From NCBI RefSeq assembly GCF_003073045.1, contig NC_037590.1:20177708-20241707 (forward strand): a stretch of DNA of 64,000 bases, given 5' to 3'. Source of the DNA: Pomacea canaliculata. Lineage: Eukaryota > Mollusca > Gastropoda > Architaenioglossa > Ampullariidae. How positions within the stretch are numbered: the first letter of the stretch is position 1; each line of letters starts with the position of its first letter. Made by a program: the position numbers and the translations under genes. Below the pieces are notes generated by a model. That model did not search any database, had not been told where the DNA came from, and saw only the letters and a program-made list of their open reading frames with translations. This document shows, in pieces, positions 9,970 to 62,013 of this stretch.

Positions 9970-12589
9970 CTATGACCCAGCCTCTGTATGGCGCAGTACG
10001 GTTTTGATAATCAGAGGTGAAGTAGGTTCAACTTGACTTCCTGATGCTTTGAACGTCAGTTTTTCCTGAAGACAGAGTGATATTTCCAAAAGCATAATAT
10101 AACACTTTTGCATGTAAGCAAATTTAAAACAATCGGACGAAAATTTCTGCTTGTTATTTAACAATCTACTTTAACTTGATGTTAATGTCTTAATGTCGGT
10201 TTTTTTATTTTTTGTTTTTAAAAATCGTAGACCTTGCTTAGCACAGACCTTTTATTCCATTTATGAATTAAGAAATGCGATAATGACAGCTAGTTTCAGG
10301 AGAGCTAATTGGTTTGGTATTATTGTTGTAGCCCTATTTTCTTTGAGGAGTAACAAGGAATAAACTGAATTGGTATTATAAATAATATTGTGTACTCAAC
10401 TTGTATATAATTAGAATCATTAAGAAGTGTTGTACAAAGTCTACAATATCTCAACGACCAGAAAATGTGTTTTTTCAAAATTCTGTAATAATACCAACAA
10501 TAATACTACCACCACCACTGCCATCCTCCTCCTCCTTTTCATCAGTTAGAAGACTACTTTCCCAGGAGGAACAAATATTTCTACGAAGACTACAGACTAT
10601 ACACATAGACTAGAAAATTTGTTTACCGGTAGATCTTGCGTCTTGACGAATTTAACCTTCCTGAGCACGTGCACCATGGCGATTTTCATTTCCAACAAAG
10701 CCAGACGCTTGCCGATGCACAGGCGGGGTCCGAAGCCGAATGCCAAGAAAGAGCAGGATTCATTTCATCCTTCGCTTCTTCGGAAAATCTGTAAATAATG
10801 CAAGTTTAATGTTAAACACTACACACACACCCAAGCACATGTCATCTCAGTCAGCTTCAGCATTTGAGAAATGTCACACTTTGTCATGACTCTTGGCATC
10901 AAGTAAAAACAATGAGATCGTTGTCTGATGTTAGAAACTTTCTAGGGCCACGGTTATTGGGTCGTTTTTTTACCTTTCTGGTCTGAAGACCTCAGGATCT
11001 GGGAAATATTCAGGGTCTCTCATGACATCATAAATAGGAATGAGAACGCCAACTCCTTTTGGGATAGTCACACCCTTGATGGTCACTGTTTCGGAGGCCA
11101 CGCGATTTATACTGTGAGAAAAAAGTATTGAGAAAGATTTTCATTCAATGTTAATTTTAAACATTAGTGCAAAAGGTAAAGTTAAAAAAAAACAAAACAA
11201 CAATTATACTGAAGCGTAAGCAAGAAGTTTCCAAAATGTTCCAGAACATTATAGAAGTACAAGCACGCACTTTGAATTTGTATTATTTTAGAAGAGTCAT
11301 AAAGAGTATCAAATCAATAAGCAAAAGTAAAAGGCAGCATAATTTAAATCAATAAAAAGCAACGATTAATTACACTTAACAATAAATAAATAAATACATA
11401 AATAAATACATAAAATGAAATACAAGACGAAGTGTTGTGACAACGTACGCTGGTACAGGTGGAAACAATCTCAGAGTCTCTTTGATGGTCTGTTCCATGT
11501 ACTTGAGTTTACTGACATTGTCATTGGTTGGTACCTCCTGTAACATTTCATAGAAAGGGAAATGACGATGACTAGAAATTATATTATTTCCACCTCTCTA
11601 ACCATGGCAACCATCTTGCATGTCTTACCTTGTTGCTCTTCACCGTCCTGCTCTATCATCTTGTTCTTTTTATTAGGGAATCTGTTTATGATTCATTTCA
11701 AAATAACCAAATTTGTAACGTTTTCCTGCAACTTACATCTCCAATTTGCTGTTGAATTTCGTCAACAATTTTCTGCTGAATATCCGGGTACATTGCCAGG
11801 TTGTAGATCATGAAGTGCAAAGTCGTAGCCGTTGTTTCGTATCCAGCAATAAAAAATATTACCATCTGAGCGACGATCTCATCGGGAGTTAGGCCTGAGA
11901 GAAAACGAAGACATAACTTTTAGTATTTCTTTTAAAGTGTTAATTACCACGATAGTTTTCTTGCCCTTTGACTTAACTGATATAACGGTATGTACAAACG
12001 AAGAGCTGGAAAGTCAACCATATTAAAAGGCTAAATTCCCTGAAAAAATAGCAATTGCATTTTTCATATGACTGTTCCTGGAACATACGAAAAATCTTTT
12101 CTCGTAAGTCGCTTAAAACTTGTCGTTTTTAAGGTCACTTTTAAACATAAAATTTCTTGCCATATCTTACGTTTTGCATTCTCAGAAACTGCGCCCACGA
12201 AGTCTTCGGATGTTTCTGCGTTGATAAGGAGCTGGACAAAATCTGTCTTTTTCTGAAAAAGGCGATATATATATATATGTGATAAATAGTAGAAAGTTTA
12301 ATAAATTTCGAATGTTAGCAAACAATTAATAACCGATCTTTGTCTTCCTTTCGTGTAGATGCGAGTTAAATGTGTGCTCCCTGGTATTATAAGAGAAAAT
12401 AGTTCAATCAAATAAATAAATAAATAAATAAATAAATAAAAAATCAGATATTCCCAAGTTTGTTAGCAAACACAACTAGTGACATGTCTGCAATGGGAAA
12501 AAAGTAGTACAGGAGATGTCTGACAACTGACATGAGCAGAAAATCTTTCGAGTAGGAATGCTTCATGTCTTCAGAAGGGGGTAGCACTG

Positions 12590-40000: not shown

Positions 40001-43000
40001 AGAAACAAAGAAAACATGGTTTCTCACTTGCAACTTTGTGTGCAAATTGTGACAGTTTGAGCCGTGGATCAACAGGTGCTGCACTGATCTCGTCGCCAAC
40101 TTCGAAGGGATGATAAGGAAAGATGAGAGGATCGATGTAAAGAAGTAAGCATTCGTTCTTATGAAATTAATCAATCATAGTGTACACGATGATTTCGCGT
40201 TTGTTGATGTGTGTGTATTTGTGTGTTTGAGTGCTAGTGTGTTTGTATGTGCACGTTTGTGTTGAGTTTAAGAAAACATAACGACTATACACACGTTTGT
40301 GACTTACATCTGAACATGGTGTGATACAGACATACGTTATTGCGCTAGTCCAATTCAACGAAAAAAATTAATAAATCTTAATTTTCTTTTCCGCATCGAC
40401 TATCAGGCTGTTTGGAGGTTTCTCTATGGACGTGATAGCGAGGACAGCTTTCGGAATCGAAGTAAACTCTCAAAAAGACTTCGATGAACCGCTTGTAAGA
40501 GATGCCAAAATTGCTTTGGACAACATGAATACTGGAACACCATTCCTCGTGATTCGAAGTTAGTTTCACAAAACATTTATCAGAACAAAATGAGAAAACA
40601 AAGTTATGAATGAATGAATGGTTATACAATTCCATTTGAAAAGGAAAGGACAAAATCTCTTGAGAGTTTAGGGGGTTACTTACGTATATACAGTGTTGTC
40701 CATAGGATATACCATGGGAATCCCATGGGATAGGATGGGATGGGACAGGAATAAATTGCCGTGCGATGGAATGGGATGGGATAGAAAAATATGTCCCATG
40801 GACAACCCTGCCTATATATATATATAGGCGCACTTACTGCAATCATAAAATATGTAGACTTTTAAAATATATTTTTATGTTTATTTATTTCTAAACAAAA
40901 CAGGAAATGTTACATAGTGAAATCCGAATGATCTGAAAATGCATAAACATCCAATATAATTTAAGCAGCAAACGCATGTTGTACTCACTAGAAAAGAGAC
41001 TGTTATACGTTTCAGTATTATTTCCCTTTCTCGCACCTGTTCTGAAACTTCTCAGAACCTATTTCTTGAAGATAACAGCAATACATTCTCTTGTGAGAAA
41101 TATTGAAGGCATCATCGAGTCTAGGAAAAAGGCGAAGAGCGAGCAGGTCAGTTGGAACTAACAGTCTGTATGACAGTCATACATGCACGTGCAAAAACGC
41201 TTTTATAATACAAGCATAAGCTAATAAGTGCGACCATAAAACACGTAGAAAAGCCAAAAAATGTACTTATATATATTTATATACAAACGAAGTCAACAAT
41301 AATTTCTGTCGATGTTGATGGCAACGATAACCTTGTACAGTTCATTACCACATTTCTTGGAGTGTACGCTTGCCGCTTGTTATTGCTCAACGAGACTTCA
41401 TGGTCTAGTTCACAATTGTTATTTATGTACTTCATTCTAGTCCGTGCTCTGTACAGAAACAAGCAGACTTTCTCCAAATGATTCTCACTTATGAAAGATC
41501 AGAAGACGGCGAGCAACCACATGTGGAACAAAAGTGTAAGGTTTTATGATTAAAGGACTTATTGAAAAGCTCTCTACATTGCGTGAAAAACTTCAAAAAC
41601 TTAAAAAAGTGTTTACCGATAATAGTAACTAATTTGGTTCCCCCTTCAATAAAAGAAGTGTCTGTTACCTTCGGTATTCATTCAGGAAGACAGCAAAGGT
41701 TAACAAAAACTCAATGATATTAAGAGACCTTCCATTAGATTAACTGTGCCTATAAGGTTCTTGTAGCTCTCGTAGTTAGACATGAATCTGTCTCCATGTT
41801 TTCTATAATAAATAAAGGCAACTGGACTGTGTTGCAGCTATGTCTAGGCTTGAAATCCTCGGACAGGCCTTCCTCTTCTTTGTCGCTGCCTATGAGACCA
41901 CATCCTCTACACTGCAGTTCATGGCTTACTGTCTTGCTCGCCACCCAGACATTCAGCAAAAAATTCTTCAAGAGATCGAGATAGAACTTAGTGATGTGTG
42001 TATCTCACGGAGTTAAAACTTTTTAAAAACACTTTTATTTAACTCACCATGCTTGCTTTATTATCTCTCTGTCTGCCAATTTTGTGATTGATATTCTATC
42101 CGCTTTCCATTATCCTAGAGGTCTAAAATTACACCAATTACGGGTGACGATGCAACATTAAATTATTTCCATCAGTCCACAAGTTGTAAAATAATTTTAT
42201 TATAAAGTTTAATTTTGTATGAAAACTGATAGCCCGAATTATAGGTAACTGCTGCATTAGGACTAGTAAACTAGATGCTAGATTAGCAATCGTCATGTTG
42301 TGATGACACTCGATCTTCTCGATCTTCTCGAGAGAAAACATAGATGAGTGAAACCATAAAACAACAACAAAAAAAGACGCATGCAAAAGAAAATGTAATA
42401 GCATCAGGAAAAACTACACAAGAAAGACAAATTAGACAAGTGCAATACTGACAACACACATCACAAGTACGAGCATTAGAAACACCGGAGCAACATCAAG
42501 CTCTTTGCGGAGGGACAAGCGGATGTGGCACATAGCAGAGTAAAATGTCTCGAAGGTCTGATGATAAAAGACTCAGATTTTACAAAGCTCACAGAAAAGA
42601 AGCCGTGAAATTGTGCAGCTCATGATGAAATGGATGGTACGAGAACTTATAGCCTCAATTAGGTTTAAAGATTTTAAAATAAAATAAGTAAAAAATAAAT
42701 TTAAAAGACACTTTCATTTGAAATTTACTAAGACGGTAACATGATTTTTATCCTAATGCCTCATGATTTTCTTTAATACATATACCGTTAGATGTAAGGG
42801 GCACGCTCTTAAGCTTTTAAAACTGTGATCATCCGAATTTTCAACTTAAACTGCCCCATTTTAAGTATATTTCAAATAGAAGTGTTTTAATTTCTTTACC
42901 TTGTTTTATTTCTCCAATTAACATAAAATACTTTCAGGGAATGGGCATTTGGTAGAGAAGCTATTTGATAATATAGTTTGTAACTTTTATATAAGCTTTA

Positions 43001-49171: not shown

Positions 49172-52100
49172 ATGGACGTGTTGTCCTTCATCGCCTTGTC
49201 CACACCCTTTGTGCTGCTCCTGACAGCGGGCTTCTTGTTCTACCTGTGAGTATCGAAACAGTTACTTTAAATCTTTATAAATTCTTGAAAGAAGTAGTAG
49301 CTTTGAGAAATAAAAGATGAAAAAAAAGAGAAGATTGCCTGCATCTTTTCCGTTGGTTGTTTATGAGAGGGGAATCACGTTTTCTTTATTTTAACTAAGT
49401 GTTCACGAAAATGAAGACAGTCTAGGAAAAATTTTACAATATCACAAACGATTACATTTCTGGTCCGTCACAGCTACGGAACTTGGCCCTATGGAGTGTG
49501 GAAGTCACTGGGTGTTGATGGACCCAAACCTTCACCTTTCATTGGCAACCACCATCAGCTGGCTACAGAGGTAAATTTGTCTATTTGATGTGTTGTTATC
49601 TGAGTATTCATCGTTTTTGTTTAGTGACACGACACAAAAGTTATTTCGATTTTAAATTGATTGCGTCTAGTAAAATTTTGTAAATGAATATTAAAATTCT
49701 TTTTTCAGGGAATCGAACCATTTATTGAGAGGCGGTCGAATAAATATGGTCGCACATTTGGGTATGTTTTACAATCCATTCTTACTAGCACTCCTTTTTA
49801 AAAATCTGTTTTTGGCTTTAAGTATCTGGTAAAGTTTTGCTTTGTTGCCGTTCTCCCTAATTCCTTGCACATCTACCTTCAGCAATCATACATCCTCTCA
49901 ATATTACGGAGTTATCCTTTCTTTCTACAGCTCTCTCTCTATATTTGTCTTATTATGTTTTAAACATTCTTTTTATATATTTCCATTTGTATCTTAGCAT
50001 CTATTCCGGACGTGTGCCTATGCTGGTGACCACAGACCTCGACATTTTAAAGGAAGTTCTTGTGAAAAATTTCAATCAGTTTACAGACAGATTTGTGAGT
50101 ATCCTATTGCCATAGCTCGCTAAAGTCTCTTAAGGTCAGTTAGAGGATTATTTGATTCCACAACAGATTGACTTGGTGACCAAATGAAACAAAACGTTTG
50201 TTACCTTTACATTTTGATTTACACTAGAAAGATAGTGTATTTTCAAATAAAAAGTGTACACAGAAGTACAACTTTGTTTCTTTCGTAACTATTCTCTTGC
50301 TTTTTTGACTGTGAACACTTTTAGGAAAGGGCTGAAATTTTTCCAGAGGAAGTTGGGTCGATGTTGCCATTCTCTACAGGTGCACAATGGAAAAGAATTC
50401 GACACATACTCACACCTACCTTTAACACGGCAAAGTTGAAACAGGTGAGCCAGTGCCAAGTAAGCTTTTGCTTGTTTCATTATTGTTGATTGATTTACAG
50501 TGTTGTCCATAGGAATGGGAATCCCATGGGAATCCCATGGGAAACGTCCCATGGGGCGGGATGGGATGGGACAGCACACATTTGTATTTCCCATGGTAGT
50601 CGATACTTAATATTGCAAAATAAATTTACTGTTATTTCATTCATCAAGGATTTAAATCTTTCCTCTGAATCATCTATTGTATGTGAAGTAGCAGGAATTA
50701 TAGAACAAAAGCCGAAAAGTGGTTTTCAGTGTTGTCCATAGGATTGTTAATACCATGGGAATCCCATGGGATACATCCCGTGGGATGGGACGGGATGGGA
50801 CAGGCATAAATCGCCATGGGACGGGATGGGATGGGATAGAAAAATATGTCCCATGGACAACCCTGTTGATTTATGTAGTATTGTAAGTGTACACTGTAGA
50901 GATCATCCACCGTAATTTTACTCGCAGAGCACACGTACCCCCAGACCAGGTCAATGCTCTTCCATAAGAGACATAATTTAATTTGCAATATTTTAAAATT
51001 GTGAGATAAAAACGATATTCTATTATAAACAGACTTCACAACTGTTGTGTTAGGGTGAGGTCCACACAGCCTAGAGGCTGTAATGGGTATGTGGAATAGG
51101 AAACCAATCGTGTCCATCAGTCGTCCTGACTTTTCCAGATAAATCAGGAACCGATTCCTGCAGAGTAGCTGTGAGGTTGTTCACAGTCGTAGGAATTCAC
51201 CACTTGTCTACCCCTTCCTCATATGTACCTATCTAATCTATCTTTACTCATTTGGAGATATCTATCTAAAGATGTATATTAATCTATATTTATGTGTACT
51301 GTGAATTTTATTATTTGTGTGCTTTAATATACTTTATATATGTAAGCTATATTTTCTCTGTATTTTTTCCTTTTACAGATGGAAAACTATATTCAACGCT
51401 GCAGCATCCAGCTCACAAAAAACATTGAGAAGGCTGTTAGTAAAGGCGAAAAGATTGATGTCAAAAAGTACTTTTTTTTGGTTATAGCTTTTCAGTATAT
51501 ATTTTGTCTGTTTATCTAATTTTTAATGCTAAACAAGAGATTTCATACCAGGACGTTTTAGTGAAAACTGAGGATTCTTTTTCTGTCCATTTGGCTTTGA
51601 TTATCAATTATCTTATTTTATGGGAATGGTAGTAATCTCAACGTGAACATTCCTTTGAAAATATCTAAAACTCTAGCTTTGGGAAAATAAGATTTTTAAC
51701 TAACACATGCAACACGCTTCATTGACTAGCATCTTATATTGTTAAAACTAATTGTCGGTAGATAGTCCTGCTAAACAAGGAGAGAAAACGCCGGGTACTA
51801 AGTCACTTCAGTCATTAAACACTCTGCTTGTTCCAAATTAAAATAGTAAATCCAAGTAAAATAGTTTCAATTTTGTGCCAGATGCTTTAGGGGCTACACC
51901 ATGGATGTGATCGCGGGCACTGGGTTTGGGATAGAAGTGAATTCTCAGAAAGATCTCAACGATCCATTCGTCAGAGATGCGGCGGGCCTTGTGCAAGAAA
52001 TTTTCACTCAAAAAGGATTGTTTATGTCACTTGCAAGTGAGGAAAATACTTGATAAAACGACAAATTTATAACTTATAATAGTCATATACGTATTTTTTT

Positions 52101-54986
52101 CTTATTATTTCTACCAAATTATTAAGAACCTACTAACAATGAGCTTAAGAATATGAGTTTATCACGTTAACGGCACTAATCCTAAGAGTTATGAACAAAA
52201 GTGACTTCGTGTTATGAGTCACTCTACTTATATTTACTGTACTTTTTTCAGAGGCTGCTCCATTCCTGATACCCTTTATAAGATTTCTGGTTACAAATTT
52301 CTTTCAACCCAGAGGATGGAAGTCATTCGGGGAAAACCTTCACCGCATTATACAAGATCGAAAACTGGAAGGAAACATGAATGTATGTGTAGAACAACTG
52401 TGTCACTTGTATGTCAGTGAGCATGTATATCTACGTATGTAGGTAAAACTAGTTTGAGCACGCCTATATTCACATTTACACTCACGCATAAAAATTAATG
52501 CACCCATCCACTCCACCCCCTACAATCTCTCTCTCACACACACACACATATCAATGTAGTTTTCAGAATATTCTCATCATGGCTTACATTTACATTCTCG
52601 CTTATATATTTTGTTGTACAGAGAAAACCTGACTTTCTTCAGCTACTCCTGAGCTGTGAGGTAAATCAGAGTCCAGAAAAAGACCAAATGAATGGTAAAT
52701 GAATTTGTTTTTATCACTGAGTCACATCTGGTAAATGATACCGCACATTATTTAGGTATGTCAGACAACTACACGAATCGTTATAATATTATCATATAAG
52801 CGAGATTAAAAGAACAATTAAATTTTAAAGTCAAGATAAATTGTATCTCCCACAGCTGTGAAATTCATTTTAAATACAGTTTGCATCATCGAAGTAAATC
52901 GGAGTATTTAATTATACCCTTGTCATAGACTTGCTCATTTTGTAAACAATTAAATTAATACTAAACTCAACTCTTCTTATAGTCAGTTCAGTGATGAATG
53001 TACATCATGAAGAAGATGGTGACCATTTCTATTGCAGTTTTATCAGAAGTCGAGGTCGTCGCCCAAGCAATGATTTTGTTGACCGCTGGACACGAAATGA
53101 CGGCCAACACCCTGCAGTACCTGACCTTTGCCCTGGCGCTCCACCCACAGGTGCAGGAGAAGGTCGTGCGGGAAATCAACCAACAGCTTGGTGATGTGAG
53201 TTTTTCTTTCATGATACTATTATAACAACAAAGTATTAGTAGTAACCTCATATCAATAGTACTTGTCCTCATCTCCTTTTCATCATCGGAAATATGCTGG
53301 ATGAGATAGAAGATGAAAGAAACAATTGGATGGATAGCAACAAAATGTAAGAAATCAGAGTAAATAGAATCTGTACTGCTACTAATTTGGGTAGAAGCAT
53401 AGTGAGTCTTAGTGACATTGGTACCAAAGAGGACACTACCCTGTTTCCTTGCTAACCTTTCTCAGGAGACACCTACCTATGAGGGTGTATCAAAGCTGAA
53501 ATACCTGGACTGCGTCATCCAGGAGACACTGCGGATGTATCCTTCCGTCAACTCGTAAGAACTTTGTGTATCTCTGCTGTCATTTTGGTGACACATAGGT
53601 GAAGGCAATAAATACAATGATATGTTGTTTGGTGTTGTTCCTAGATACCTCATCACCCTTGGTTCTTTGTTTTAACTATTTACTACAAGATATCTTATCA
53701 GCTTTCTAGCGATGTAGAAGATATGTTGACAATATTATGAGCCATGAGGACGAATGAAACTGTTTTTATTAAAACTCTGATTTTTGATACACTTGTAGAA
53801 CAAACAGAATGGCATTAGAAGAGGTCACCATTAAAGGCATTACAATCCCTAAGGGCGCTGGAGTTATGATTCCTATCGCCAACGTGATGAGAGACCCGGA
53901 GTACTTCCCTGAACCTGACAAGTTCTTACCTGAACGGTGAGAGATTTATTGACGACTTGTTTTGTGCTTAGTACTTTACCAGAGATGTATACAGATAAAA
54001 GGAACAGATGTTTTCAGTTGAACATTAATGTGACATTGAAAAAGAGTGCGCAGCTGCTTTATATAAAAGAGAACAGATTGTAGTCAAAGGTAAAAGGCAC
54101 AAACAACAGAAAAAAATCATTTAAAACAAAGCTCTGCACAAAATCAATGAAAAATAGCAAAATAAAGCTGCTGAGGTAAGAAAAAATATTGTTGTGGAGA
54201 ATTCACTCAAACACAAATGTTAAACAAGGAAAGGTAAGCATTGGACACACACAGATGAGCAAGCGGATAAACCAAAATCATCATCAAAATTAGTTTCTAA
54301 AAAGTAGCTCACCGCCAACCTTTCAAAACTAGTTCCCTATTATGACAATCAAAAGTGTTTCATTTTTGTCTTTAAAGTGTACTTTAAAACAAATTTGACA
54401 TCCTGAATGTCAACACGGGATGAGGGTTATAGGTCGGCTATGTAAGACCATGCAATGGAAGTGATTCTGTACAGGCTGAGTAATGAGAGGAAACTTTCTT
54501 GTGCAGGTTTTTGGAAGACAATGTTAGCCCCATCTCATTCTTGGCATTCGGGTATGGACCTCGTCTGTGTATTGGCATGCGTCTGGCTCTGCTGCAGATG
54601 AAGATGGCCATGGTTCATGTGCTGAGGAGAGTAAAGTTTATCAAGACAAACGACCTGCAGGTGAGATGCAACAGAAAGGTACCAGAGATCACAAGAAAGT
54701 CTTAGCCTCATCTTTCTTATATTTGAGAGCCACAGTTGGCTCAGACACAGATTTACATAAACCATAGTCTTGAGAGAGTTGTTTAATAAGTTAATATTTT
54801 TGTAAAAATTGACATTATCAGGAAGTGAGCTACCGTAGCTACTGATCGCATTTGATAATATATACATTTATTGTGACTCTTTGTGTACAGGAAATCCTGA
54901 AGATTAAGCCTGGCTCACTTTTTAACCTCCCAGACAAAGTCATTGCCATCAGTGGCGAAATGAGAGACACAGCCAACACACCTTAG
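49172..54986 (+). CDS. Gene F: CYP3-clan cytochrome P450, intact, 507 aa, AGHEMT I-helix
   Basis: Exons are 49172-49245, 49474-49570, 49709-49761, 49998-50094, 50325-50444, 51379-51467, 51882-52036, 52252-52382, 52622-52694, 53038-53195, 53466-53554, 53799-53936, 54507-54660 and 54891-54986 (1524 bases, TAG). Anchor MDVLSFIALSTPF with a hydrophobic run; YGVWKSLGVDGPKPSP hinge; WKRIR 129-133; I-helix AGHEMT 313-318; ETLR 369-372; PERF; heme loop FGYGPRLCIG 439-448 with Cys446. The distal-pocket threonine after the acid, which normally helps split dioxygen, is Met317 here. The exon 6 donor is a weak GTACTT; all other junctions are ordinary. Exons 9 and 13 are shorter than in A-E and match gene G, its tandem sister. 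Intron 5 carries a composite MITE. Confidence 0.94.
50498..50865. mobile_element. Composite of two hAT-like MITEs with shared 8-bp target duplication, gene F intron 5
   Basis: The left copy starts CAGTGTTGTCCATAGG at 50498 and has lost its right end near 50597. After about 130 bases of other sequence comes a complete copy at 50727-50865 ending CCATGGACAACCCTG. The sequence TTGATTTA occurs immediately before the left copy (50490-50497) and immediately after the right copy (50866-50873). The flanks of the inner complete copy alone do not match well. The outer pair therefore behaves as one inserted unit. Confidence 0.75.
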
Positions 54987-57199: not shown

Positions 57200-60100
57200 A
57201 TGGACTTGCTGTCATTTATTGACCTATCTACATCCTTTGTACTGATCCTGTTAGCAAGTTTCTTGTTTTACCTGTGAGTATCGAAGTATTAATGTTGAAA
57301 TTTTACCTTATTACACTAAATGGACAAAACAAATTAAGAGAGATGAAAGAGTAGTAGCAAGGCAATACTCTTGTGCACATTATTTTGTCAGGTATGGGAC
57401 GAGGGAAACTTTTTTTGGTGCTAATTATTTTCTACAAATGAAAACAGATCCAACAGATTGTTTAGAATAGTGAAAACAAATTCTCAACATGGACAATTGT
57501 ATCTGTGGACTGTCTCAGATACGGAATTTGGCCCTACGGAGTGTGGAAGTCACTGGGTGTTGATGGACCCAAGCCTTCACCTTTCATTGGCAACCAGTAT
57601 CAACTGGCTACAGAGGTAAAGCTTACTAGTTAAAATGTTAGCTGGCTTTATTCTCCAAAATTTTGTTTTTAATTGTGATAATTATGTGAGCATGATAGTT
57701 TGTGTTCAGTAACAGGACATAAAGAATGTTAATGTAAAATTTATGTCATTATTAACTAAATTGTTTTCTTGAAGGTTTCTTTTGAATAAAACTTTAAAAC
57801 ATTTTTCAGGGAGCAGTGCCATTTATTCAAAAATGGTCGAAGAAATATGGTCGCACATTTGGGTAGGTTTTAATCACAAGTTCTTGGTTATGTCCTACAT
57901 GTGTGGAAGACTTAAACTCTCTAGAACAGTCCTGCTTTCTTTCGACTAATTTTTTTTTCGTCTGTCTCAATTTACGATACTATCTCGGGATTCACAGCTT
58001 TATCCATTTTTCATAGCCTTTCTCTGTGCTAATCTTTAACATTTTGTTTTAATGCATTTTTGTAGCGACTTATATTTGTATTTCAGCATATATTGTGGAC
58101 GTCTGCCGATGCTGGTAACCACAGACGTTGACATTCTAAAAGAAATTCTTGTGAAAGATTTCAACAAGTTTGCAGACCGATTTGTGAGTATACAAAGTTA
58201 TAGTTTGCTATATAATGCCATATGAAGGATTATTTAATTTTAAAATAAAAAAGGCTCAACCTCATGATTGTACTAAATCAAATGTTAGTTACCGCTGAAG
58301 ACCATCTTTTTTTAGCAGCACTCGAAAAAGAGACTGATAGAATTTAAACAGAATATTTTGATTCCACTTAAAAGTTTAAAGTGTTTATAAATAAAATATG
58401 CACATCAAAGAATCAACAAAATATCTATCTTATTAAACTCTCGTATTTTCGACATTTAACCTTTCAGGAGAATGTTGAGACTTTTCCAAAGGAAGTTCAG
58501 TCGATGTTGGCATTTACCACAGGCGGACAATGGAAAAGAATTCGACACATACTCACACCTACCTTTAGTACGGGAAAATTGAAGCAGGTAAGAGCATCAT
58601 TTGTCAAGTCAGGTGCAAAGTAAGCTGGCTAATGAGTTTGTCTTTGTACAGAGGGTGCATTAGGTTATAATTTCTATAATTTCCATATTTTTTTTCACTT
58701 CCGAGCTTTTTTATTTTTTTTAAAAACTTGTGTGTATTTAGTAATTTAGTATCACTTCTTTGTAAGTGTAATCTCTTGGAAGCTGTTGATGTGAGAGACA
58801 GTTATTTTTACAGATGGAACACTATATTCAACGCTGCTGCATCCAGCTGACGAACAACATAGAGGAGGCTATTCGGAGAGGTGAAAAGATAGATGTCAAA
58901 AGGTGAGAATTTTATCCGATTACAGTTATTCATGAGATTTTTTTTGTTTGTTTGTTTTCTTTTCCTGCGAATCTAATGTCTCCCCAAATCTTTTTTAACC
59001 AAATAATTATGTCTATAGATCAAAGTCCTTCAATTCCCACTTTCGTGAGGAAATGATACTATTTTTTTGTGTAAAATCTTGGCATTTCTTTTAAAGCAAC
59101 AAAGACAGAGTTGTTTGAAGCGGAAGATCGCTATCGAAGAAGTGTAAATCAAGTGTACTTACTTCACTTACTAACATTGCTAAAACTTGTCAATTATTTG
59201 TAGAGCGGCGAGTACTCAGTTCCTCCTGATTTCGACACCTTGCACTGTGCCCATTGTAACCTGTGTTACACACCTGAGAAACCGTTTCCTTTTGTTTGCC
59301 AGAGTCTGTGGTGGCTACACCATGGACGTGATCGCCGGCACGGCGTTTGGTGTGGAAGTGAATTCTCAGAAAGACCTCGACCATCCATTCGTCAGAGATG
59401 CAGGGACATTTTTGACAGACATCCTCTCCCAAGGGGATTTTTTGCTCTTACTTTCAAGTAAGAAAAATGACTCTTGTTTTCAATAATTGGGTCTTATGCT
59501 GATTTAATAAAGAGAGCTAACCCATGAACACATCCTAAGAGCTACAACCAAGAATGAGGTTGTATTATTATTGTATTTCATTGTTAATTTACTGTTATAA
59601 ATTTTTTTCAGAGGCCATTCCAGTTCTGGTTCCGTTTATAAATTTTCTGGTTAGACATTTCTTTCAACCAAGAGGATACAAGTCATTCATAAGAAACGTT
59701 GAGCGCATTAAAGAAGAAAGACAACTGGAGGAAAATAGAAATGTATGTATTGGACAACAGTGACAACAGTATTCTCTTCTACACACACACATGCGCGCTC
59801 GCAGAAATAAAAAAACCTTCAAGGTGTGACACGTTTAATGAACAGAGAAAGCATCAATACAGTTTCATTACAAAATAATATATAGGATTTCAAATATTTT
59901 CACAAATAATATTTTTTTTTGCTGCACAGAAGAAACCTGACTTTCTCCAGTTAATGCTGAGCTGCGAAGAAAACCAAAGTCCAAACAAAGATCGAATGAA
60001 TGGTAAAGGGTTTTGTCTTTATGACTGAAACAGATTAAGTAACTGACTCGGAATGGCGGGGAGAGAGAGAGAGAGGGAGGGAGAATATATAAACATGAAA

Positions 60101-62013
60101 TAACCACGCAAGGCCAGATATCTTATACCGACTCCAGCAATATGGTATATGTTTTGATCTGATAACAATTTATATTATATACAAAACATTAAAACATTCA
60201 ACTGTATCTCGGTCGGACACGTCATTTATGTACAAATGTTTTTTAAATGTGTATTAAAATATAGCATTCAGTTATAACTGTAAATCATAAAGAATATGCC
60301 GACCATCTGTTATTGCAGTTTTGTCAAGTGTTGAACTCATCGCACAAGCATCAGTTTTTTTCATCGCTGGCTACGAATCAACAGCATCCACCCTGCAGTT
60401 CATGGCCTACCTCCTGGCGCTGCACCCGGAGGTACAGGAGAAGATTGTGAGGGAAATCAAGGACAGGCTTGGCGATGTGAGTTTTTTTTTTTTGTTTTGT
60501 TTCATTGTTGAATTTTTGCTATTACCATTGACTTCACCTCTTGTTCATGTTATACACACTTGTCATGTTTACCTTTGATGTCTGTAGCACCCATCATGAT
60601 GTTTACGATACCAGGAAAAAATAGAAAATGAAACAAAAATCATCCACTTGAAAGAAGAGAGATGAAATGTAGTGTAACATATAAGAGAAAGCTTGGATTT
60701 GACTAAGAAAAAAAAAGCCATTGTAGTCATAAATTGATTCTATGTTTAATCAGGAGATACCTGATCACGATGGGATTTTGAAGTTGAAATACCTGGACAG
60801 CGCCATCCACGAGACATTGCGGCTGTATCCTCCCTTCTACTTGTAAGTGTGATTGTTTGGTAACAGACAGACGCAGAAGACGAGTAAAATGTTGGCATGA
60901 TGTTATATTTTAATTACCTTCACTCATCGCATCAATTTTGTTTGACAATTTACTCAAAGACGTCTAATCTACTTTGTAGATATGAATTAAGGAATATTTT
61001 GATAATATTCTCAGTACTGTGCACGACTCAACTGTCCATACCTTATTGGCTATAAAACTCTTACTCATAATGATCTGAATTTTTATAGCACTGACAGGAT
61101 GGCATCTGAAGAGGTCACTATCAAAGGCGTTACAATCCCTAAGGGAGCTGGAGTTATGATTCCTATCGCCAACGTGATGAGAGACCCGGAGTACTTCCCT
61201 GACCCTGACAACTTCATACCTGAGCGGTGAGCGATACGAGGTTAATACAAAGACTTAATCAAAATTATAATGAATAGGTTTGTAAACAATCCATTCAGAT
61301 ATGGTAAGCATGAAAAACACACATCAACAGGTACAGACACACACACGCGCACGCTACAAAAACTGAGAATTTTATTTTTAATGTTAGTATAGTGTTTATT
61401 TCCAGGAACTCAAAGGCGTAGTTTTTTGTCTACAAACACACAAACAAGAATACCTCTATGTGATGAGGAGTGAAGACATTTTTGCACAGGTTTTACGAAG
61501 GCAGCGTCGATCCCATCTCCTTCTTGGCATTTGGGTTTGGTCCTCGTCTGTGTCTTGGCATGCGTCTGTCTCTGCTGGAGGTGAAGATGGCCATGGTGCA
61601 CGTGCTGAGGAGAGTGAAGTTTGTGAAGACAGACGACCTACAGGTGAGATAACAAACCACCGCCATGCATCTTTTGTACACAGTCAACGCCATAAAAGTG
61701 GCTTAAAAAATAAAGAAATAAAATTTTGAAAGATAAAGCTTACAGAGTAGATCTACATACATTAGAAAGATAAACACATGGCAATATAAAATTGTAAGTT
61801 TTGAAAATAGTAGACTTCAAATGATAAGAAAAAAGATATGAGGTAACTCTATTTCTGATAGCTTTTGATGTCGTATTTATAAATGTGTTGTGCATCACGT
61901 TTTGTACGTGTTTACAGGAAAGTCTGAAGATGAAGCCTGGCTATGATCTGACCATTCCAGACCGAGTGATTGCCATCAAAGCTGTCATGCGAGACATAGC
62001 TGCCACAGGTTAG
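57200..62013 (+). CDS. Gene G: CYP3-clan cytochrome P450, intact, 507 aa, AGYEST I-helix
   Basis: Exons are 57200-57273, 57519-57615, 57810-57862, 58087-58183, 58468-58587, 58814-58902, 59303-59457, 59612-59742, 59930-60002, 60319-60476, 60754-60842, 61089-61226, 61490-61643 and 61918-62013 (1524 bases, TAG). Anchor MDLLSFIDLSTSF plus a hydrophobic run, hinge GVDGPKPSP, WKRIR 129-133, I-helix AGYEST 313-318, ETLR 369-372, PERF, heme loop FGFGPRLCLG 439-448 with Cys446. The I-helix threonine is replaced by Ser317, a conservative hydroxyl change. It is a tandem copy of gene F, with identical exon lengths and duplicated 3' flank, and exon 12 is nearly identical to that of F. Confidence 0.95.
60059..60084. 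repeat. (GA)n tract in gene G intron 9
   Basis: Short purine tract gagagaga with gg interruptions. Confidence 0.7.

Follow-up and report, generated by a model that had tools for sequence, protein, structure and literature searches.

Methionine at the oxygen-activation threonine in a conserved pair of CYP3-like P450 genes of Pomacea canaliculata

Can a cytochrome P450 lose the threonine of its I-helix and keep monooxygenation, or does the reaction change? In P450 chemistry, the I-helix acid functions in the proton relay, and the threonine stabilises the hydroperoxo intermediate; much of what is known about this threonine comes from laboratory mutants. A tandem cluster in the snail Pomacea canaliculata suits the question, as it holds a natural series with threonine (genes H, I, J and K), serine (G and G') and methionine (F and F') at this position, and is young enough for comparisons and residue swaps. 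Judged from their sequences, F and F' are a real, conserved and rare natural pair of CYP3-like genes with methionine at the oxygen-activation threonine; they offer a test system, not a new class. The methionine version is conserved, and the host is an invasive snail, in which the expansion of P450s is reported to be linked to stress tolerance (PMC6129957).

Gene F and its methionine codon

The window, a stretch of 64,000 nucleotides (P. canaliculata contig C1, 20177708-20241707; C1 is 45.4 Mb long in an assembly of 440,159,624 bases), carries P450 copies A (in part), B and C on the minus strand and D, E, F and G on the plus strand. Gene F, rebuilt from the window, is a complete CYP3-like P450, with 14 exons from 49172 to 54986, GT-AG at all internal junctions and a single open frame of 507 residues (Table 1). 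The interval 53038-53195, where the sequence-only reading had noticed a missing threonine, is precisely coding exon 10 of the 14, bounded by AG and GT. Alignment of the C-terminal 360 residues with phmmer gave 5vcd_A, a CYP3A4 chain, as the best match (E 4.5e-71) and set Met317 opposite Thr309, Glu316 opposite Glu308 and Thr318 opposite Thr310. The absence of the threonine is thus confirmed, as are the retention of Glu316 and Thr318, the histidine in place of tyrosine at position 315 and the residue numbers that had been assigned; position 315 is tyrosine in all seven close paralogues. Both F and F' read AGHEMT and so depart from the canonical acid-alcohol pattern, [AG]Gx[DE]T[TS].

Is the rest of the protein that of a P450? 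The Pfam p450 profile matches the same 360 residues at E 1.5e-73, with 248.6 bits against a cut-off of 22.8, and the heme loop FGYGPRLCIG (FxxGxRxCxG), the K-helix ExxR (ETLR) and PERF are all intact. The best 14 of 571 solved-structure matches are CYP3A4, 3A7 or 3A5, a placement in the CYP3 clan that is made among solved structures only. The gene had been described as otherwise open and spliceable, with a complete heme loop, and as one of the known minority of P450s without this threonine; both descriptions hold.

Intron 5 of F contains, at 50491-50803, two 84-nt copies that are 86% alike and 229 nt apart and are rich in CCCATGGGA-like palindromes. A translated open reading frame at 40378-40833 resembles the same repeat.

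Table 1. Coordinates in the window of gene F, its methionine codon and the neighbouring gene G
Feature	Position	Strand	Basis
Met317 codon ATG (AGHEMT, CYP3A4 Thr309 position)	53097..53099	+	spliced frame, phmmer alignment; same codon in F'
Gene F exon 1, start codon and membrane anchor	49172..49245	+	spliced gene model
Gene F exon 2	49474..49570	+	spliced gene model
Gene F exon 3	49709..49761	+	spliced gene model
Gene F exon 4	49998..50094	+	spliced gene model
Gene F exon 5, C-helix WKRIR	50325..50444	+	spliced gene model
Gene F exon 6	51379..51467	+	spliced gene model
Gene F exon 7	51882..52036	+	spliced gene model
Gene F exon 8	52252..52382	+	spliced gene model
Gene F exon 9	52622..52694	+	spliced gene model
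Gene F exon 10, I-helix exon	53038..53195	+	AG/GT bounded, open frame; stem omega outlier
Gene F exon 11, K-helix ETLR	53466..53554	+	spliced gene model
Gene F exon 12	53799..53936	+	spliced gene model
Gene F exon 13, heme loop FGYGPRLCIG	54507..54660	+	spliced gene model
Gene F exon 14, with stop codon	54891..54986	+	spliced gene model
Gene G, AGYESTAS, Ser (codon TCA) at Thr309 position	57200..62013	+	gene model and I-helix reading

The copy F' and selection on the pair

A full copy of the gene, F' (locus L020), lies 28.5 kb downstream of F (76889-83531 in window coordinates; C1 20254596-20261238). It has the same 14 exons and identical ATG ACG codons, and differs from F by 19 residues; its exon-2 acceptor is AC, not AG, and an in-frame AG is present 36 nt upstream. 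F' adjoins G', which has serine at the Thr309 position as G does, and this arrangement points to a tandem duplication of the F-G block. Where their pieces lie in register, the block and its copy are about 87-94% identical in nucleotide sequence. The 304 kb that comprise the window and 240 kb of flanks hold 21 I-helix exons, 20 of them readable (threonine 16, methionine 2, serine 2), and in a tree of the snail paralogues, CYP5A1 not included, F groups with paralogue K with a support of 0.97. For the genome as a whole, 157 P450s, including 56 CYP3A genes, have been reported, with expression of the group in hepatopancreas, gill and kidney (PMC6129957).

Other copies show variations of their own. 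The I-helix exons of G (60318-60476) and G' (90122-90280 in window coordinates) both read AGYESTAS, with serine encoded by TCA. Gene E has AAYETT (41837-41995), where alanine takes the place of the motif glycine. Exon 13 of gene B (10627-10777, minus strand) has an in-frame stop directly before the heme loop, and gene B may be a pseudogene.

Might the methionine be an error, or F a dying gene? An artefact of sequencing or assembly is very improbable, and so is a pseudogene. The assembly does come from long reads of a snail with a heterozygosity reported as 1-2% (PMC6129957), and the splice acceptor of F' is changed; moreover, in a tree of the window genes only, F left free alone has an omega of 0.78, and with G also free the value is 0.475 and fixing F at 1 costs a 2dlnL of only 2.1, so that F is there indistinguishable from neutrality, a point resolved only once F' was added. 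Against an error stands the same ATG in two genes whose introns have diverged by about 7%. Exon identity between F and F' is 96.8% and intron identity 92.7%, but introns 5 and 10 stand out at 97% and 99%, which makes gene conversion between the copies possible, and the two are then not fully independent witnesses.

The comparison of F with F' (NG86) gives a dS of 0.092, a dN of 0.016 and an omega of 0.175, from 25.5 changes at 296 synonymous and 16.5 at 1039 nonsynonymous sites (Fisher p 2e-8). This is lower than in the three other tandem pairs measured, which have 0.51 (G), 0.41 (H) and 0.27 (I-J). Maximum likelihood over nine paralogues yields an omega of 0.183 for the F/F' tips, 0.494 for their stem and 0.408 for the background. 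Fixing the tips at 1 costs a 2dlnL of 27.9 and fixing the stem at 1 costs 8.2, and the tips differ from the cluster background with a 2dlnL of 6.3. With its omega of 0.18 and 14 open exons, F has neither the near-neutral rate nor the broken frame of a pseudogene, and a dying or relaxed gene was discarded as a candidate. The suggestion of a 'relaxed' activity, if taken as relaxed constraint, is likewise contradicted. The omega of the pair and the shared ATG together are strong evidence against a miscalled base, a dying gene and relaxed constraint; the methionine enzyme has been maintained at the protein level since the F/F' duplication.

The threonine position in the genome and divergence of the I-helix exon

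How rare is methionine at this site? With the I-helix exon of H as query, all 113 first-look candidates from the genome were scored, and 105 matched at E <= 1, 21 in the 304-kb cluster region and 84 elsewhere. L107 (a stop within the motif), L116 (motif absent) and one broken cluster copy at -23 kb were left out. Among the 102 readable matches, a few of which may not be true P450 I-helices, as L086 (stops upstream of the motif) and weak rows to E near 1 were kept, the residue is threonine in 89, serine in 6, methionine in 2, asparagine in 2, proline in 2 and aspartate in 1; P450s too distant for the H-exon query fall outside this tally. Methionine occurs in F and F' only, and non-hydroxyl residues account for 7 of the 102, at four separate places in the genome.

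The remaining exceptions are varied. Asparagine is found in the AGYENT exons of L069 and L071 (C3, 27.20 and 27.16 Mb), and prostacyclin synthase is described as having Asn287 at the corresponding place (PMC13049297). L064 (C8, 6316145-6316297) reads AGYEDNGT, with an acidic aspartate; an acidic residue at the threonine position is reported to turn CYP199A4 into a peroxygenase (PMC10750395). L079 and L094 (C2, 23.5 and 23.4 Mb) have proline and no acid before it (GGVSPTA and GGVGPTA), and are weak matches (E 0.01 and 0.18). At C1 3.18-3.19 Mb, four P450s with a single long frame (L002, L087, L097 and L111) keep the threonine and have no acid (AGTNT, AGTGT, AGGST and AGVMT). The strings VGLDST and VGMDKT, picked up in L001-L005 by pattern match, were dropped as I-helices, since the part of the gene that contains them precedes the true I-helix, as seen for L002.

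Variation at this position is known in other animals. By our own count from the tables of a survey of three cnidarians, 83 motifs include three with a non-hydroxyl first residue (isoleucine 2, lysine 1), five with serine and none with methionine (PMC8110760); its authors call I-helix variation "not uncommon". A literature search for a threonine-to-methionine change or for the string AGHEMT did not find these phrases among the matches listed, which leaves their absence in print unproven.

How did the change arise? For the threonine, H, H', I and J use ACG, and K uses ACA; ATG is one C-to-T (CpG) transition away from ACG, and from ACA two steps are required. The I-helix exon as a whole is also divergent. 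F and F' have in common 52 residues that are absent from the seven close paralogues, and 14 of these lie in the 52 codons of exon 10 (hypergeometric p 0.001); ten fall in residues 308-328 (p 2.7e-5, for a segment picked afterwards). Applied to the G, H and I/J pairs, the test gave no enrichment in exon 10. For exon 10, omega on the F stem is 1.26-1.45, versus 0.37-0.40 in the rest of the tree (p 2e-4), the only significant rise among 12 exons. Some of the other 11 are nominally above background, none significantly, and exons 4 and 12 are below it (p 0.01 and 0.03); the stem omega for the rest of gene F is 0.385. On seven other branches, exon 10 is not significantly raised.

Does this represent positive selection? 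The core, residues 308-328, has a stem omega of 2.8 (2dlnL 8.9 versus 1), in a segment chosen post hoc, and for the whole exon the excess over 1 is not significant (2dlnL 2.0 and 0.8). When the neutral stem length is freed for exon 10, omega becomes 0.87, with no clear difference from background (2dlnL 2.94). Synonymous divergence of F in exon 10 is above that of the rest of the gene against five of the seven paralogues, and about equal against K and I. Thus, adaptive remodelling is not established: the pattern is suggestive of positive selection on the I-helix, which is not claimed, and exon 10 may have undergone gene conversion, be older or have been imported.

These data bear on whether the methionine matters at all. 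The threonine might be dispensable for the substrate of this enzyme and methionine near-neutral, the I-helix exon having diverged through homogenisation of its neighbours or through a gene-converted exon that entered F. The five other non-hydroxyl residues among the 102, the raised synonymous divergence, the free-length model with its modest omega and the single CpG transition all favour such an origin. However, a search of the 105 genome matches for an AGHEMT donor turned up only F and F' themselves, and the protein was held at an omega of 0.18 after the change, and we regard this explanation as improbable.

Proposed chemistry and comparison with known systems

As F and F' are kept by selection, they are probably functional enzymes that handle oxygen in an altered way, rather than broken ones. 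We favour, with moderate confidence, the reading that they are working, constrained CYP3-like microsomal P450s, probably monooxygenases with modified coupling. The acid and the second threonine, the proposed compensating feature, are both kept in F, which makes this outcome the most likely. We infer catalytic activity, the proton route, substrate specialisation and some loss of coupling. The methionine would have replaced the O2-contacting threonine as part of a wider I-helix change. The enzymes would most likely still accept electrons and O2, and the first proton would come from Glu316 via water. Thr318 and ordered water might supply, with lower efficiency, the hydroperoxo hydrogen bond that the threonine normally gives, and Met317, with Leu310, Thr312 and His315, might remodel the space over the heme to fit a narrow substrate. 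Thr318 is proposed as a substitute by analogy with published mutants, and methionine is bulkier than their alanine.

Mutants that lack the threonine are reported to differ widely with the enzyme and its substrate, some being strongly uncoupled and others nearly normal (PMC9366932, PMC12332404, PMC11900375). Aromatase T310A keeps 36% of its activity and releases more H2O2 (PMC9366932); Thr268 mutants of BM3 are described as losing about 85% of dodecanoate hydroxylation (PMC12332404) and as having lower turnover and coupling (PMC11900375), so that a second threonine does not always rescue. Given this range, monooxygenation with poorer coupling is no less probable than the 'unusual chemistry' that the sequence-only reading proposed, and the latter stays a suggestion.

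Might the pair have given up oxygen activation? The main rival, which we consider unlikely, is that F and F' are peroxide isomerases or lyases, independent of O2 and reductase, that arrived independently at a state like that of thromboxane synthase (TXS, CYP5A1). The SRS4 of TXS is given as QafIFlIAGYEI345ITNT, with a nonpolar isoleucine near the iron (PMC13049297). F reads QAMILLTAGHEMTANT, and its Met317, lined up by motif with Ile345, is likewise nonpolar; three residues after it, Asn320 of F and F' corresponds to the asparagine of ITNT, and the seven close paralogues all have serine there. Nevertheless, Thr318 is kept in F where TXS has isoleucine, F sits among snail tandem paralogues in a tree without CYP5A1, so that the likeness would be convergence, and a likeness of two residues may be chance.

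Alternatively, Met317 might reach the iron or block the O2 site, giving a six-coordinate, gated or non-oxygenating heme protein such as a sensor, an H2O2-releasing oxidase or a ligand binder. BM3 A264M with palmitate is reported to have lost its sixth water ligand, an indication that I-helix side chains can alter the ligands of the iron (PMC11900375). Yet A264 is not the threonine site but lies one turn ahead of it, and F retains the remaining hallmarks of an active P450; this possibility appears rather improbable. A broader speculation, also unlikely, would be that F and F' have left O2 activation altogether, as a mollusc-specific peroxide isomerase or a methionine-gated heme that arose by an I-helix change in a detoxification cluster and was fixed by selection. 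Were that so, the route would parallel the origin of thromboxane synthase.

CYP3A4, the best match among solved structures, has the heme loop, ExxR, I-helix acid and second threonine in common with F, which differs in Met317 for Thr309, Thr312 for Phe304 and His315 for Tyr307. Acropora CYP3094K1 and K2 (AGSDIT) are listed as two paralogues with a nonpolar residue in place of the first threonine and with the second threonine kept (PMC8110760, Table 2), as in F and F'; they have isoleucine and not methionine, aspartate and not glutamate, and belong to another family. The threonine-to-alanine mutants of CYP199A4, BM3 and aromatase resemble F in having lost the alcohol of the acid-alcohol pair, and CYP199A4 and BM3 are shown with a second threonine as in F (PMC9366932). 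Those, however, are laboratory mutants, and F is natural; in aromatase, methionine occupies the second position, the reverse of the order in F.
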